Part shown: positions 24,584 to 37,187 of the stretch, piece by piece
Numbering within the stretch: the first letter of the stretch is position 1
Layout of the letters: every line of letters begins with the position of its first letter
Source: Trichococcus shcherbakoviae
Lineage (GTDB): Bacteria > Bacillota > Bacilli > Lactobacillales > Aerococcaceae
Assembly (NCBI RefSeq): GCF_963666195.1
Contig: NZ_OY762653.1
Location: forward strand, 1,240,001 to 1,304,000
Direction: 5' to 3'
Length of the DNA stretch: 64,000 nt
Program-made: the position numbers and the translations under genes
Notes under the pieces: generated by a model
Told to the model about the DNA's origin: nothing
Databases searched by the model: none
What the model saw: the letters and a program-made list of their open reading frames with translations, nothing else

Positions 24584-24628
24584 GTCACTGAATGAGTTGT
24601 GAGTACCAAATATACAGGAGGTGTTCGA

Positions 24629-25585
24629 ATGGATCTGATTGCGCTGTTATCGCAGGAATCTGTCATCGAAAAGGAACAGAAAAAGCGGCATAAATTTGTG
24701 CCCGATCTGCCGGAACTGGAGGGGGAGGCGACCCGGGCGCCAAAAATCAAGGAACATCTGTTTTTCGAAAACAAGGACATCTACATCAGCAAACACAACC
24801 GCTACGCCGCCTACCCGGAGCACTCGCACCAATTCCTCGAACTCAACTACATCGTGAAGGGCGAATGCCGCCAGATCATCAACGGCGTCCCTTACTTGTT
24901 GAAGGAAGGCGACATCCTGCTGATGGACACCGGCAGCGCGCATTCCATCGAAGCGCTCGGCAAGGACGATCTGCTTTTGAACATCCTCTTCAACAACAAA
25001 AGCATCTCGATCAACTGGCTGATGAACATGAACCACAACGACAGCATCCTCTACAAAATTTTGCTGACGAACAACCCGCTTGACACGAACGCCGCCAATT
25101 TCATCCTGTTCCGCAACGAACAGAATGAGCACATCAAGCAGATCATCAACAATATGGCCGACGAATATTTCTTCCCGAAGGTCTTTTCCGGAAAGATCAT
25201 CAGCAGCTACCTGCCGATTCTGCTTTACGAATTGGCGCGTTCCCTGCCGCACGAGTACAGCGAAACGTTCAGCAAAAAGGACCCCTTTTACGAGGTCCTT
25301 CAGCTGATCGATGCCGAGTTCACAACGCTGACCTTGGACGCTGCATCCAAACGGCTGAACTTCAACAAAAACTACTTGAGCAACATGATCAAGAAGCGCA
25401 GCGGCCAGACGTTCACGGAATTGCTGAACGAAAAGCGGCTACTGAAGGCCAACCTGCTCATCGAATCCACCGAAATTCCGATCCAGACGATCCTGACCGA
25501 AGTCGGCTTTTCGAACAAGACCTATTTCTATACGTGCTATAAGAACAGATTCCACTGTCTGCCATCGGAAGTGCGAAAAAAATAA
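24629..25585 (+). CDS. AraC-family regulator of the rhamnose operon
   Basis: 318 residues from ATG at 24629 with a perfect AGGAGGTG ten bases upstream. The cupin sensor domain shows HNRYAAYPEHSHQFLELNYI and ILLMDTGSAHSIEALGKDD; the C-terminal DNA-binding domain (about 220-318) shows ASKRLNFNKNYLSNMIKK and GFSNKTYFYTCYKNRFHCLP. It is divergent from rhaB, so by position it is the rhamnose-responsive activator, functionally like RhaR/RhaS. It is a clear paralogue of the regulator at 8367. Codon third positions are noticeably richer in G and C than those of its neighbours. A palindrome array starts 13 bp after its stop codon and there is no ordinary terminator before it. Confidence 0.88.
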   Translation: MDLIALLSQESVIEKEQKKRHKFVPDLPELEGEATRAPKIKEHLFFENKDIYISKHNRYAAYPEHSHQFLELNYIVKGECRQIINGVPYLLKEGDILLMDTGSAHSIEALGKDDLLLNILFNNKSISINWLMNMNHNDSILYKILLTNNPLDTNAANFILFRNEQNEHIKQIINNMADEYFFPKVFSGKIISSYLPILLYELARSLPHEYSETFSKKDPFYEVLQLIDAEFTTLTLDAASKRLNFNKNYLSNMIKKRSGQTFTELLNEKRLLKANLLIESTEIPIQTILTEVGFSNKTYFYTCYKNRFHCLPSEVRKK

Positions 25586-25598
25586 TTTACGATTGCTG

Positions 25599-25837
25599 GT
25601 TGTCCGATTCTTCGTGGTTATCGGACAACCACAAGGGCATATGTTGTCTGGTTGTCCGATTCTTTCCGATTATCGGACAACGCCAAGTGCTAATGCTGCC
25701 TGCTTGTCCGATTCTTCGCACTTATCGGACAACCACAAGGGCATATGTTGTCTGGTTGTCCGATTCTTTCCGGTTATCGGACAACGCCAAGTGCTAATGC
25801 TGCCTGCTTGTCCGATTCTTCGCACTTATCGGACAAC
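25599..25837. repeat. Palindrome array 1: five 31-bp palindromes, exact 52-bp period
   Basis: Units at 25599-25629, 25651-25681, 25703-25733, 25755-25785 and 25807-25837, each spaced exactly 52 bp. Every unit has arms GTTGTCCGAT (or CTTGTCCGAT) and ATCGGACAAC around an 11-nt loop of form TCTT-N5-TT. The 21-bp linkers alternate between two sequences (CACAAGGGCATATG type and GCCAAGTGCTAATG type), so units 2-3 and 4-5 are copies of a 104-bp higher-order unit. It fills the gap between the convergent araC and galE genes. Because 52 is not a multiple of 3 the apparent reading frames here only reflect the repeat. It is not CRISPR: spacers are repeated and palindromes dominate. Confidence 0.95.
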
Positions 25838-25874
25838 GTCCAGGCGCTCACACCCTCTATTACCGAACTAACTG

Positions 25875-25923
25875 AAAAAGTGAAGGACAGCCCCGGAAAA
25901 ATGGGGGCTGTCCTTCACTTTTT
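25875..25923. terminator. Bidirectional terminator after galE
   Basis: A 20-bp stem beginning AAAAAGTGAAGGACAG with complement CTGTCCTTCACTTTTT, 16 bp beyond the galE stop codon, between array 1 and galE. Confidence 0.92.
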
Positions 25924-25938
25924 CATACTAACAATTTT

Positions 25939-26949
25939 TCATTCGTAGCCGTTCGGATTATTCTTTTGCCAATTCCAGGAATCGCGGCACATGTCCGCCA
26001 ATGTCTTCTGGGCGGTCCAACCCAGTTCTTCCTTGGCTTTGGTAGCGTCCGCATAACAGGTCGCTACGTCTCCAGGGCGTCTGTCGACGATTACGTAAGG
26101 GATCTCGACGCTATTCGCTTCCTCAAAGTTATGCACCAAGTCCAGTACGCTGTAGCCAACGCCGGTACCTAGGTTGTAGATGCCGACGCCTTCCGTTTCC
26201 TTGATTTTGTCCAAAGCCTTGATATGGCCCAGCGCCAAGTCGACGACGTGGATGTAGTCACGGACGCCTGTGCCGTCCGTTGTGTCGTAGTCGTCCCCGA
26301 AGACGCTCAGGCGCGGCAATTTACCGACCGCCACTTGCGTGATGTACGGCATCAGGTTGTTCGGAATTCCGGTCGGGTCTTCGCCGATCAAACCGGATTC
26401 ATGCGCGCCGATTGGGTTAAAGTAGCGCAGCAACGCGATGCTCCACTCGGAATCGGCGAATGCCACGTCCTGCAGGATCTGTTCGATCATCACTTTCGTA
26501 TAGCCGTAAGGGTTCGTTGCGCTCGTCGGCAAGTCCTCCGTCAACGGCGACACGTTGTTCATGCCGTAGACCGTAGCCGATGAGCTGAAGACGATCTTCT
26601 TCACGCCATGGCTGCGCATCACATCGCACAAAACCAAGGAGCTAGTGATGTTGTTGTGGTAATATTCGATCGGTTTCGCCACGGATTCGCCCACCGCTTT
26701 GTAGCCAGCAAAATGGATGACGGAGTCGATATCCTCTTTTGAAAAGACTGCGTCCAAGGCTTCGCGGTCCAGAACATCCACTTCATAGAAAGTCGGTGCT
26801 TTTCCGGTGATCGTTTTGATCCGGTTCAACACTTCCGGTTTGCTGTTGGAGTAATTGTCGACGATGACCACTTCCTGGCCGGCTTTCAATAATTCCACTA
26901 CGGTATGGCTGCCGATATAGCCGGCGCCTCCAGTCACTAATACTGACAT
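25939..26949 (-). CDS. galE: UDP-glucose 4-epimerase
   Basis: 336 residues from ATG at 26949 (GGAGGGG upstream); the longer frame overlaps galT and lacks support. It interconverts UDP-galactose and UDP-glucose with bound NAD. The Rossmann motif [14 protein letters not shown] opens the protein; the catalytic Ser-Tyr-Lys set is in FSSSATVYG and [29 protein letters not shown] and the [12 protein letters not shown] region are typical. Third and last gene of galK-galT-galE; 28 bp follow the galT stop codon. Confidence 0.96.
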
Positions 26950-26977
26950 TTTATCCCCTCCACTTTCATTCAAAAGT

Positions 26978-28483
26978 TCAACGCAACTGTCCGACGAAAC
27001 GAAGGAACGCTTGCTGGCCTTCAGGGGTGCGTTTGAACACACCAGCATCCTCCAGCACCCGCAAAAAGGCTTCGCCTACAGCTTCCTGCACCACTTCCGC
27101 CGCATCAGCGCCAGTCCGGTCCTTTTTGTCCACCAAGCCTGCCACCCATTCCTGATGGTAAGGAGCAATCTCAGCTGTTTCTCCGTTAAGATAATTTTCT
27201 ATTTCAATCAACTCATCCTTCAAACGCGGAGGCAAAATGGCTAGCCCCATAACTTCGATCAAGCCAATGTTCTCTTTTTTGATGTTCTGCACGTCCGGAT
27301 GTGGATGGAAAATGCCGTCCGGGAACTCCGGCGAAGTCCGGTTGTTCCGCAGAACCAGATCCAGTTCGAACAAACCGTCCTTCATGCGCGCAATCGGCGT
27401 GATCGTATTATGCGGAATACCCTCCGTGACATGCAGGATTTCGGCCGCTTCATCCGAATAGCCTCGCCATGCATCCAGGATAAAGGTCGCCGCCTCCGCC
27501 AATTCATGGGCATCCTTACCGGCAAGCCGGATGACGGACATCGGCCACTTGACGATGCCTGCCTGAATCGAAGCGAATCGGTTCATTTCAAATGGCCGTT
27601 CGACCGGTGCTTCTGCCATCGCGAAGGTATGCCGGCCGCCTTGATAATGGTCATGCGACAAGATCGAGCCACCGACAATCGGCAGGTCCGCATTCGATCC
27701 GACGAAATAGTGCGGGAATTGCGTGATGATCCCAAGTAGCTTATCGAAAGTATGCTTGTCCAATTTCATCGGCTTGTGCTCCTCGGCCAAAAAGATGCAG
27801 TGTTCCTCATAGTAAGCATAAGGCGAATATTGCAGACCCCACTTCTCGCCGTTTAATGGCATCCTGACGATGCGGTGGTTGGCGCGGGCCGGATGGTCGA
27901 TGCGCCCGGAATAGCCTTCATTTTCCATGCAGAGCTGGCAAGCTGGATAAGCGGAAGCAGGCACGTTTTTCGCCAATGCGATCTGCTTCGGATCCTTTTC
28001 CGGTTTGGACAAGTTTATTGTGATTTCCAGTTCACCGTAATCGGTCCGGTGTTGAAACGCGATATTTTTGGCGATGCTGCGGGTTTTGATGTAATCATTG
28101 TTCTGGCTGAGCTCGTAGAAATAGTCAGTTGCGGTTTCCGGATTTTCTGCATAGACTTCCCAGAAATGCTTGTTGATGACGGAAGGCATCGGCGTGATCA
28201 AAGACATGATCTGCGCCTCCAGCGTCTCCCGCGTGTATTGGTAGTCCTCGATTTTTCCGTTTGCGACCGCCCAATCCACCAAGCGATCCAGCAGATCCAA
28301 ACGATCCGGCAAACTTTGCGATGGCACAAGTTGCGTATCCAAGTCTTCCTTTCCGATCATGACCAACAGCAGATTCCGCAGCGCAATCCTGTCCATCGCA
28401 TCCGTTTCGCCTTTTATGATGCCCGTTTCCACGAAATCGACAACAGCTTGGTCGATCGCATACTCTGTCTCATTTATCGTCAT
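26978..28483 (-). CDS. galT: UDP-glucose-hexose-1-phosphate uridylyltransferase, Firmicutes type
   Basis: 501 residues, the length of the Firmicutes GalT family (GalT class 2), which is longer than E. coli GalT. It transfers UMP from UDP-glucose to galactose-1-phosphate. The active-site His cluster is visible in [19 protein letters not shown]; other landmarks are [39 protein letters not shown] and the [22 protein letters not shown] stretch. It begins 12 bp after galK with AAGGAGCG as RBS and is the middle gene of the Leloir operon. Confidence 0.95.
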
Positions 28484-35045: not shown

Positions 35046-35324
35046 TTAAAACTGGTCCATCAGTTCCATCATCTTATCCACTTGTACCCGCTCCAGGTAA
35101 AGGTGCTGCTGCAACTTGGCGATTTCTTCCTCAAGCCGATGTACTTCCACTACTTTGGCCAGCAGTTCCGTTTGATAGTTCTCCTTACCCATCTTAAGCG
35201 CTTCTGCAATGGCAGCCTTTTGCTGTTTGTACTGATGATAGAGCATAGCCTCGGCTTGGCTTTTTGGGCCGCCTGCAGCTTCCATTCTTTCGCAATGTTC
35301 GAATTGTTCTTTTGTCATTGTCAT
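35046..35324 (-). CDS. Small coiled-coil protein under SAM riboswitch control
   Basis: 92 residues from ATG at 35324 (GGAGGG upstream). No signal peptide or membrane segment. The N-terminal part (KEQFEHCERMEAAGGPKSQA) is polar; the rest is a continuous charged helix with heptad-like Leu spacing (ELLAKVVEVHRLEEEIAKLQ) ending MMELMDQF. It is Met-, Glu- and Gln-rich. I do not recognise a family. Because a SAM-I riboswitch with terminator directly precedes it, it should be expressed when SAM is low, which ties it to methionine or methyl metabolism. The longer in-frame version runs back into the riboswitch terminator and is rejected. Confidence 0.75.
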   Translation of the reverse strand: MTMTKEQFEHCERMEAAGGPKSQAEAMLYHQYKQQKAAIAEALKMGKENYQTELLAKVVEVHRLEEEIAKLQQHLYLERVQVDKMMELMDQF

Positions 35325-35357
35325 CGTCTTTCCCTCCAGATTGTTTTTTTTGAAAAC

Positions 35358-35513
35358 AAAAAACCCTTCTTTAAACAAGAAGAGTCGGGAATGTCGCTTT
35401 GCTCTTCTTATCTCTCAGATTGCTCTGCAGGATTTAGCACCGTGCCGCTGCGTTCGCGCAGGGGTCGGTTGCTGAGATGTCATCGGGCCAGTCCCTCGAT
35501 CTCTCTTGATAAA
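35358..35513 (-). promoter_or_regulatory. SAM-I (S-box) riboswitch with terminator
   Basis: On the minus strand the aptamer (35513 to about 35405) contains the conserved S-box core: AGGGACTGGCCCGATGA, CAGCAACC, GGTGCTAAATCCTGCAGA and the closing GAGAGATAAG that pairs with CTTTATCAAGAGAG. The terminator is CTCTTCTT (35377-35384) with AAGAAGGG (35364-35371) and six Ts (35358-35363). AAGAAGAG at the 3' side of P1 can instead pair with CTCTTCTT to form the antiterminator. High SAM should therefore switch off the small gene and DUF488. A promoter TTGAAT-17-CATAAT lies at 35538-35566. Confidence 0.93.
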
Positions 35514-35537
35514 GAAGTTATTTAATTTTCAAACATA

Positions 35538-35566: not shown

Positions 35567-35744
35567 TGATTTCCAATTGGCTTAATCTATTTTTGTCATC
35601 TACATCTGTTCTACACACTTCCTTGGTATCCTTAAGAAGGATCAAGCGATCCCGCGTTGCAGATCATTTCTTTTGTCCGATCAGCAACACGGAAACAGTC
35701 TCGTAAAACATAGCCAGTTTATACATAGGAAGGAAGAACTTACC

Positions 35745-35981
35745 ATGAAGAAAAAATATTTGATGATTGGCCTGATTTCTTTTACTGCATTGACCACCTT
35801 TGCTGTTGCAACTCCCGTAGAAGCAGCGATGATGGATACGGTGACTTTTGAAAATCACGGTCAGTATGTACGTAGCCATGCCACTCATCTTCGTCATCAC
35901 GCTGGAGACGCCCATCAGATGAACGGCGTAAGTATGCATGCCAGAGATAAGGATGAAAATATTTCTTGTCCCACTGAATAA
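35745..35981 (+). CDS. Small secreted His-rich protein
   Basis: 78 residues from ATG at 35745, with AGGAAGGAAG upstream. A signal peptide is clear: MKKKYL, a hydrophobic core GLISFTALTTFAVA and a likely cleavage after VEA (about residue 27). The mature peptide of about 51 residues is unusually rich in His (SHATHLRHHAGDAH) with several Met and one Cys, suggesting metal binding or a pH-sensitive surface peptide. The FENHGQYVRSH stretch resembles a motif of small hypothetical exported proteins in Firmicutes. It is monocistronic with a strong terminator; function is unknown. Confidence 0.65.
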   Translation: MKKKYLMIGLISFTALTTFAVATPVEAAMMDTVTFENHGQYVRSHATHLRHHAGDAHQMNGVSMHARDKDENISCPTE

Positions 35982-36065: not shown

Positions 36066-36118
36066 GGGCAGCATCAAAACTAGAATAATACTTTCTAGTT
36101 TTGATGCCGCCCCTTTAT
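36066..36118 (+). terminator. Terminator of the His-rich protein gene
   Basis: GGGCAGCATCAAAACTAG pairs with CTAGTTTTGATGCCGCCC (one mismatch) and is followed by CTTTATTTC. It lies 85 bp after the stop codon, leaving an unexplained 3' UTR. Confidence 0.85.
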
Positions 36119-36202
36119 TTCTGTATGGGACTTGATTTTACGCTCAGAAATAACCTTTCAAAACCGTTATGGCGGGGAATCCCGTTACTAACTCTCTCTC
36201 TG

Positions 36203-36545
36203 ATTGTCCGATTTCTCCACGTTATCGGACAACCACCAATGCCAACTGACTCCGCTTGTCCGATTCTTCCACATTATCGGACAACCAGCAAGACAATCTC
36301 ACTCTACTTGTCCGATTCTTCCACATTATCGGACAACCAGAAAGACAATCTCACTCCACTTGTCCGATTCTTCCGCATTATCGGACAACCAGAAAGACAA
36401 TCTCACTCCGCTTGTCCGATTCTTCCACATTATCGGACAACCAGAAAGACAATCTCACTCTACTTGTCCGATTCCTCCGTCTTATCAGACAACCAGCAAG
36501 ACTAACTCACTACACTTGTCCGATTCTTCCACATTATCGGACAAC
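36203..36545. repeat. Palindrome array 2: seven 31-bp palindromes, exact 52-bp period
   Basis: Units start at 36203, 36255, 36307, 36359, 36411, 36463 and 36515, each exactly 52 bp apart and 31 bp long. Arms are TTGTCCGAT and ATCGGACAA with loops like TCTTCCACATT. Unit 6 has ATCAGACAA, which breaks one pair. Linkers are near-identical within the array (CAGAAAGACAATCTCACT type) but differ from those of array 1, while period and palindrome are the same. The last unit ends nine bases from the DUF47 stop codon, between convergent genes. Same family as 25599-25837; not CRISPR for the same reasons. Confidence 0.95.
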
Positions 36546-36554
36546 CACCACAGA

Positions 36555-37187
36555 TCAAGCGTACTTCAACGCAATCTCTTCCACGAATTTGGTCACGTCC
36601 TTGAAGGCGTCGCAACAATCCTCCAGGGATTTATAGATTTTGCTTAGGATGACGGTGCTGACCGCATCCACATCGTTCTGATAGAGATCGCGCATGGATT
36701 GGATATACAGCAGATCGCCTTCTTTTTCACAGGCATTGATCAGGTCGATGACTGCATGGATCTCTTTTTGCGATTTCTTATAGGTTCTTAATAGCCTTAC
36801 CGCCGTAAGCAGTTCTTCGGCTGATTTTTCGACCAGATCCAGGAATTGGTTGATTTCCGGGGTGATGTTCTGCGGTTGATAGATCTCAATATGGATCATG
36901 ACATCCTCTATCATGTCGATGGCATGGTCCAGACTGGTTACCAGCGCAATCACATCCTGCCTGTCGAAAGGCGGCAACAGATCGTTGTACATATAGCGCA
37001 TCAGCCTGTATTTCGCGAGGTCGGCATTGTGTTCGATTTCATGCATCTCGTCCAATTTTTGACTTAGATCAGCGACCGGATAATCCGCCAGCACCTGCTT
37101 CAGAAATTCCGCCGATTGGACACCCCATTCGGCAAGCTTGATGAACTCATCGAAATAATCCAACTTTTCCGTCTTCTTTTTGAACAT
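36555..37187 (-). CDS. DUF47 (PhoU-like) protein, PiT partner
   Basis: 210 residues, all-helical, of the DUF47/TIGR00153 family related to PhoU. Typical acidic metal-binding helices are seen in DEMHEIEHNADLAKYRLM and DACEKEGDL-type segments (INACEKEGDLLYIQSM). These proteins are encoded with PiT transporters and are thought to regulate phosphate uptake at the membrane. It begins 12 bp after pit. There is no ordinary terminator after it; palindrome array 2 starts nine bases beyond its stop. Confidence 0.9.
   Translation of the reverse strand: MFKKKTEKLDYFDEFIKLAEWGVQSAEFLKQVLADYPVADLSQKLDEMHEIEHNADLAKYRLMRYMYNDLLPPFDRQDVIALVTSLDHAIDMIEDVMIHIEIYQPQNITPEINQFLDLVEKSAEELLTAVRLLRTYKKSQKEIHAVIDLINACEKEGDLLYIQSMRDLYQNDVDAVSTVILSKIYKSLEDCCDAFKDVTKFVEEIALKYA

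Follow-up and report, generated by a model that had tools for sequence, protein, structure and literature searches.

The window, a stretch of 64,000 nucleotides, belongs to the single-contig genome of Trichococcus shcherbakoviae (G000; 2,925,055 bases) and holds two intergenic arrays of one palindrome with different linkers (Table 1). In the array at 36.2 kb, whose orientation was fixed by the TTC side of the unit centre, TTGTCCGAT units start as direct repeats at positions 36204, 36256, 36308, 36360, 36412, 36464 and 36516, and all six spacings are exactly 52 bp. The seven units and the 52-bp period of the preliminary description are thereby retained, while its start positions each fell one base too early. 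Tandem Repeats Finder (TRF) delimits the same array at 36204-36548 with period 52 and 6.6 copies. Six of the seven units have perfect 9-bp arms, and the unit at 36464 carries one mismatch (ATCAGACAA). When the window was scanned for hairpins without regard to their sequence, nine hairpin pairs were found 46-68 bp apart, of which eight are spaced by exactly 52 bp and all lie inside the two arrays; the ninth is unrelated and spaced by 47.5 bp.

Both arrays lie between convergent genes, as had been described: the AraC-type regulator (+) and the galE-like epimerase (-) enclose the 25.6-kb array, and a small ORF (+) without a Pfam match and the DUF47 gene (-) enclose the 36.2-kb array. A SAM riboswitch on the minus strand at 35405-35515 (RF00162, 78.5 bits vs a cut-off of 44.4) lies upstream of a 110-aa minus-strand ORF (35046-35378).

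Table 1. Genes, arrays and hairpins of the window and further loci, with coordinates
Feature	Location	Strand	Remarks
AraC-type regulator gene	24599..25585	+	Stop 14 bp before the first unit of the 25.6-kb array
Five-unit array, same palindrome, other linkers	25600..25836	+	Period 52
Bidirectional terminator-like hairpin	25873..25925	.	Beyond the 25.6-kb array seen from araC; 22-bp perfect arms
NAD-dependent epimerase (galE-like)	25939..27048	-	Converges on the 25.6-kb array
Small ORF	35673..35981	+	Converges on the 36.2-kb array; conserved at the locus in relatives
Terminator-like hairpin	36066..36112	.	Beyond the 36.2-kb array seen from DUF47; 20-nt arms, one mismatch, 7-nt loop
Decayed unit of another palindrome (CCCGTCAAAACC..GGCGGG type)	36154..36175	.	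Near the 36.2-kb array
Seven-unit palindromic array	36204..36544	+	Unit TTGTCCGAT-N11-ATCGGACAA plus 23-bp linker, period 52
DUF47/PhoU_div gene	36555..37187	-	Stop 10 bp from the 36.2-kb array
Hairpin between upstream stop and array	L174, L175, L183 second array, L189 first array, L193, L199
Palindrome pairs in Beijerinckiaceae-type MAGs	L061 1219/1270; L074 3566/3617; L083 2809/2860; L112 359/410; L118 6113/6164

Among 37 places in G000, which take in three sister-stem arrays and two single units and perhaps not every array of the genome, a codon-usage gene caller assigned 21 to convergent, 16 to codirectional and none to divergent gene pairs, against 31, 117 and 42, respectively, of 190 background gaps of at least 100 bp (Fisher P = 8e-7 for the convergent and 3e-4 for the divergent class). 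The caller misses the small plus-strand ORF at the 36.2-kb array, which was therefore counted as codirectional, although it is really convergent. No called gene is overlapped at any of the 37 places. Array orientation shows no pattern relative to the G-rich (replication) strand, with which 14 of 33 arrays point, four more being left unassigned.

The araC and DUF47 genes had been thought to lack an ordinary terminator, which was not supported, as a terminator-like hairpin follows each of them beyond the array. Both window arrays thus lie between a stop codon and the next terminator-like hairpin, so that both may be transcribed. The unit itself has none of the features of an intrinsic terminator, the palindrome being followed by CC and the linker with no T run. 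A hairpin, not always with a T run, occurs within 40 bp of the array edge at 19 of the 37 places. At six of the eight codirectional places with such a hairpin it separates the upstream stop from the array (Table 1); of the remaining two, L190 has a hairpin overlapping the end of the gene, and in the second array of L189 the hairpin is found past the array. These data bear on the possibility that the arrays are RNA elements, i.e., chains of transcribed hairpins in the 3' UTR that protect, process or terminate the message, which we consider quite unlikely. The order of stop, array and hairpin in the window and at the second array of L189 agrees with such a role, and the window arrays fold far better than shuffled sequences (z = -11.7 and -8.3), as any palindrome array must. 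However, the six arrays that sit past a hairpin would be mostly untranscribed if that hairpin terminates, no Rfam family was matched (the best hit of the 36.2-kb array was tsr1 with 29-31.5 bits vs a cut-off of 235, and nothing relevant was found over the 25.6-kb array), and a period of 52 or 62 bp, matching helical turns, has no obvious RNA reason.

The palindrome is abundant in the genome and the genus. G000 contains 65 exact palindromes with any centre of 4-24 bp and 139 palindromes at N11 with up to three mismatches, compared with a single one for the reversed control, so the family is not a product of chance. Exact palindromes occur in 10 of the 13 genus genomes searched (7 to 113 copies), the exceptions being G061, G065 and the 51%-complete G070, and in none of 63 other genomes of Trichococcus's family; their lack in G061 and G065 indicates that the system is dispensable. 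Among the matches listed, contigs named T. pasteurii, T. flocculiformis, T. patagoniensis, T. ilyis, T. alkaliphilus, T. paludicola and strain K1Tr carry the same palindromes. In total, 447 distinct units were collected at 129 places, 105 of them multi-unit, with a maximum of 14 units; this sample is biased, as an exact TTGTCCGAT palindrome was the criterion by which the 8-kb named loci were picked, and it includes orthologous arrays from related species, which are not independent. In G000, sequence was read in the window, in 28 stretches that surround arrays and in 20 stretches taken without selection.

The arrays turn over. Comparing their lengths between strains had been proposed in the preliminary description, and between G000 and strain SX930 of the same species the unit number differs at 13 of 18 matched arrays, out of 37, with flanks that are 79-100% identical; the comparison covers matchable arrays alone, and arrays absent from SX930 would escape notice. 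The public record 'Sedimentibacter sp. SX930' (MUZD01000001.1; L065 and others) seems to belong to Trichococcus, and to the same species as the window. The 36.2-kb array has seven units in G000 vs three in SX930, and the same locus holds two units in G066 and G062 and one in G071. Another terminator and no array are present there in G061, G060, G064, G067 and G069, and the DUF47 search gave no match in G065 and G070. In G063 the DUF47 locus carries a three-unit array of an unrelated palindrome (CCCGTCAAAACC..GGCGGG type) with centres exactly 52 bp apart. The centre of the decayed unit of this type near the window array is 53.5 bp from the first TTGTCCGAT unit in the window and in SX930 and 51.5 bp in G066 and G062; the DUF47 locus thus combines two kinds of unit in nearly one register. 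Such variation makes the arrays candidate strain-typing markers for Trichococcus.

Turnover of this kind is what a selfish or neutral structural repeat would produce without any protein. Palindromes would promote replication slippage, units would duplicate and be deleted, intrastrand template switching would keep the arms matched, the period would be inherited from an ancestral array, and the repeat would survive in harmless 3' intergenic DNA. This is the main rival to the reading that we prefer below, although we rate it as rather unlikely: it explains turnover and the multitude of stems well, and the strict spacing and the half-site shared across families poorly. The unequal unit numbers and the patchy presence among genus genomes speak for it, and a position between convergent genes is also what mere tolerance predicts. 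MIRU/VNTR loci consist of tandem, intergenic units of about 50 bp whose number varies among strains. The arrays resemble them in being tandem, intergenic and variable in unit number, and differ in the conserved palindrome of each unit and in a period that recurs at many loci, and in several families, although the linkers differ.

Spacing is nearly invariant across the genus. When intervals were detected irrespective of their spacing and counted up to 150 bp, 334 of 347 Trichococcus intervals measured exactly 52 bp, and the rest measured 51 (seven), 53, 59, 72, 103 (two) and 104 bp; the case in which other arrays of the genus would keep the palindrome and lose the 52-bp spacing was therefore not encountered. 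TRF, which is blind to palindromes, gave 104 rows with a period of 30-75 at Trichococcus loci, all of period 51, 52 or 53, with two arrays counted twice and loci chosen for TTGTCCGAT. Fifteen of these rows have another stem, five of them representing the double change TTGTCGGAT/ATCCGACAA, and in all fifteen none of 30 shuffles exceeds the unit in palindromic character, by a blunt measure under which eight rows of the TTGTCCGAT family itself score below the best shuffle. In 400 kb of G000 that was not picked for arrays, two arrays of period 30-75 were found, at 51 and 50, with weaker palindromes that were matched by 1 and 6 of 60 shuffles, respectively.

The preliminary description held that palindrome and period are the conserved parts, and the stems agree with the spacing in this respect: in a set of 80 arrays that differ in their linkers, information content is 1.3-2.0 bits at stem positions and 0.04-1.07 bits at linker positions, the outer positions of the unit centre also being fairly conserved (up to 1.8 bits). 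The consensus unit reads GG-TTGTCCGAT-N11-ATCGGACAA-CC, with TGTCCGAT as the core of the half-site and a strongly conserved 29-bp geometry. Linker identity amounts to 80% within arrays, 36% between arrays and 26% after shuffling. Linkers are therefore homogenised inside arrays, as had been proposed and as expected for a selfish repeat, and nearly unrelated between arrays; the earlier statement that linkers are not shared is right in that the between-array value is near random, and slightly too strong given the weak common signal that is left. The same figures contradict a CRISPR-like array with acquired spacers, an explanation with next to no probability. The 29-bp palindromic repeats at regular distance, with 23-bp intervals, are CRISPR-like, and CRISPR finders may flag them, but the intervals within an array are homogenised copies of each other rather than acquired sequences, 23 bp is short for spacers, and the 36.2-kb array gave no blastn match in plasmid and phage collections.

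Linker length is conserved far beyond linker sequence. Non-coding flanks show 137 indels per 1252 substitutions, a ratio perhaps inflated by the light gap costs of the alignments, and 931 substitutions separate adjacent linkers of the same length, summed over 216 pairs. Applying the flank ratio to them predicts about 102 length changes, against 12 deviating intervals of 347, and the deficit is still extreme with 51 expected (P about 6e-11). Linker length is therefore held by something that does not hold the sequence, which a selfish repeat does not readily explain, although homogenisation itself could purge length variants.

Mismatches in the stems help to distinguish between a structure and a pair of sites. 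In 447 units, pairs 3-9 contain 33 G-T, 42 A-C and 41 other mismatches on the centre-fixed strand, and the missing excess of G-T over A-C argues against the RNA reading. Compensated pairs are few (13 cells, all at pair 6; 12 from C-G to G-C and one to T-A), and such arm changes matched in the other arm are again compatible with a selfish repeat. In genome G330, five of the six units of array L201 carry an A-A stem mismatch, as do all five units of L202 in G171 (AACGGACA-type second arm). That this mismatch is kept in 10 of 11 units suggests that the half-sites weigh more than a perfect hairpin, and such retained imperfect arms are not what slippage with matched arms would give. In the sixth L201 unit, however, the A-A mismatch is repaired by a change in the other arm, and the other G330 arrays have perfect arms, so pairing may matter after all. 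On balance, though not cleanly, the pattern favours half-sites read by a dimer over a perfect hairpin.

Several other palindromes share this architecture. The stems TTGTCGAAT, ACACCCGACAGA, CCCGCCAA and AAAGATGAAT form 51-52-bp arrays in the same genomes, and unlike stems are mixed within one array at L070, L064 and L116. The sister palindrome TTGTCGAAT-N10/11-ATTCGACAA is present in 11 of 13 genus genomes, G061 included, and among those listed 9 of its 11 close pairs have centres 51.5 bp apart and two 103 bp; palindromes of 28 and 29 bp alternate with 23-bp linkers, so that the centres stay 51.5 bp apart. Many stems thus have the 50-52-bp period class in common, as a selfish repeat would allow, and one specific protein would not explain these other stems and their mixing in some arrays. 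That genomes lacking TTGTCCGAT palindromes are devoid of such repeats altogether would agree with 399 kb of G061 and G065, which contained no array of period 30-75, but was rejected because two TTGTCGAAT palindromes occur in G061. L277 9850-10400 (G000 near 2439850-2440400) is an intergenic region densely packed with CTCCGGNGA-type palindromes whose distances are irregular.

Whole-turn spacing of dimer sites also recalls serine resolvases. Their res sites are palindromic dimer sites with TGTC/GACA ends, and in gamma-delta res the half-site resembles TGTCCGATA and sites I and II are about 53 bp apart. Arrays of res-type sites, with TGTCCGATA as half-site and recombination altering their length, are very unlikely in our judgement. 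Besides these resemblances, for which the literature found gave no confirmation of the gamma-delta site, one G000 resolvase gene is preceded, at 83-112 bp, by a 30-bp palindrome whose arms are TGTCGGAT. Against them stand the size of the arrays (up to 14 sites), the unlike stems in the same period class and architecture, and the location of the three G000 PF00239 genes (787143, 1449955 and 1455409), which lie beside none of the arrays listed. PF00239 genes are present even in genomes without exact palindromes (three in G061 and two in G065), and of five plasmid relatives three have upstream palindromes with unrelated arms and two have none comparable. The upstream palindrome of the serine recombinase gene at L250 1312-2044 (206 aa; G000 near 1455409), 30 bp long and about 83-112 bp away, reads TGTCGGATTTGGGT-GT-ACTCAAATCCGACA with one mismatch and is perhaps the recombinase's own site.

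Related arrays are also found outside Trichococcus. Of 398 sampled Bacilli genomes, 14 have two half-sites 37-67 bp apart, and seven of these are clear members: the window's own genome, G330, G171 and G418 with 52 bp, and G155, G201 and G391 with 62 bp. The remaining seven show isolated pairs at varying distances or, in the case of G405, a 44-bp tandem repeat (G405:C6:338479-338619; L205) that begins with TTGTCCGAT and lacks the palindrome's second arm. The half-site, the N11 centre and the 52-bp period are shared by Pseudoneobacillus, G330, G171 and G418; seven units of P. rhizosphaerae follow each other at 52 bp, and a related array in Mesobacillus boroniphilus also has period 52. Matches occur in 23 of the 151 genomes of the G330 family, and 18 of these belong to one genus, which has 21 genomes in all. 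Counted by hand among the 150 pairs listed (12 of the 23 genomes), 132 pairs are at 52 bp, 11 at 53, four at 51 and one at 50, and the remaining two are a different short repeat in G500; the reversed control gave none except two in G485. Whole arrays have a spacing of 53 bp in G565. In g80, the genus of G155, four of nine genomes match, with periods among those listed of 61-62 bp, and since the unit positions of a 62-bp array of Macrococcoides goetzii match those of G623, we take this genus to be Macrococcoides. Three Bacilli families thus have a period of about 52 bp, near five helical turns, and a Macrococcoides-like genus has one of 61-62 bp, near six. The step from 52 to 62 bp adds one helical turn and is the best hint of a face-of-helix constraint, resting mainly on one evolutionary step. 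That the half-site stays the same across several Bacilli families despite differing linkers counts against a selfish repeat.

Streptococcus BOX and RUP and enterococcal EFAR are small, mobile-looking intergenic repeats of Gram-positive bacteria, with boxB modules in tandem, and to our knowledge none is built of one helically phased palindrome. The arrays are like them in their intergenic tandem modules. According to PMC3733652, REP/BIME elements with RAYT comprise GTAG- and CGTC-tagged families. Mobilisation of a REP/BIME-like element by a Y1 (RAYT-type) transposase is most unlikely here, even though the arrays likewise consist of short extragenic palindromes in many copies and in clusters of varying length, and Y1_Tnp genes occur in 12 of 13 genus genomes. 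Unlike REP/BIME, the arrays repeat a single directly oriented palindrome, spaced by a constant 52 or 62 bp, in Bacilli hosts, without a GTAG or CGTC tag and without a matching pattern of Y1 genes: the repeats are present in G063 (98% complete), which gave no Y1_Tnp match, Y1_Tnp is present in G061 and G065, which lack TTGTCCGAT palindromes, and no such palindrome lies within about 1.5 kb of the Y1 loci L010 and L011. Among the open-licence PMC papers listed, PMC6950789, PMC11984121 and PMC3733652 included, no description of these repeats was found. The arrays are real, strongly non-random and more widespread than the window shows, and "new repeat class", one of the possibilities raised at the outset, seems a fair description of them; they are best filed as a variant of extragenic palindromic repeats or VNTRs with unusual architecture.

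The reading that we prefer, with slightly less than even confidence and from sequence comparison, is that each unit is a site for a putative dimeric, sequence-specific protein and each array a row of sites on one face of the helix. Dimers would bind neighbouring sites cooperatively, which would require same-face phasing; tandem duplication and deletion would supply copies, and selection would remove units that fall out of phase. The resulting nucleoprotein patch may be tolerated or useful behind genes alone, where it could block read-through or retain supercoils. A protein that binds the units was not found, and the two gene families tested, Y1_Tnp and PF00239, do not follow the arrays. A broader and more doubtful proposal is that the arrays represent a widespread, undescribed Bacilli element, in which rows of palindromic sites locked to whole turns (52 bp in Trichococcus and no fewer than two further families, 62 bp in the Macrococcoides-like genus) would be read by diversified dimeric proteins and form phased filaments behind genes as transcription or supercoil insulators. 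If so, each stem family of a genome would be read by its own member of a set of paralogous proteins, within one common architecture. Sequence is the usual basis on which bacterial repeat families are defined; here the architecture, a palindrome with whole-turn spacing, outlives the linkers and, within the genus, the stems. Should a protein read the arrays, they would represent a new way of organising DNA behind genes in Bacillota; should there be none, they would offer an exceptionally clear example from nature of repeat evolution driven by structure.

A phage or plasmid origin was rejected, as the 36.2-kb array has no blastn match in the plasmid and phage collections and none of the 56 half-site pairs in 54 stretches of viral contigs is 52 bp apart (by eye); four viral stretches have a single palindrome. 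Single exact palindromes in Kineothrix, Janibacter, Treponema, a Cytophagales MAG and a few others were mostly dismissed as chance, save for the Cytophagales and Beijerinckiaceae cases. In the Cytophagales MAG, TCCGACACC-N-GGTGTCGGA palindromes form a 39-bp tandem array (L130 5020-5133). Two Beijerinckiaceae-type MAGs (Alphaproteobacteria) carry interspersed TTGTCCGAT-N11-type palindromes, with 12 and 7 exact copies; all five detected pairs (Table 1) are exactly 51 bp apart, and a parS-like TTTCACGTGAAA lies between the palindromes in four of them.
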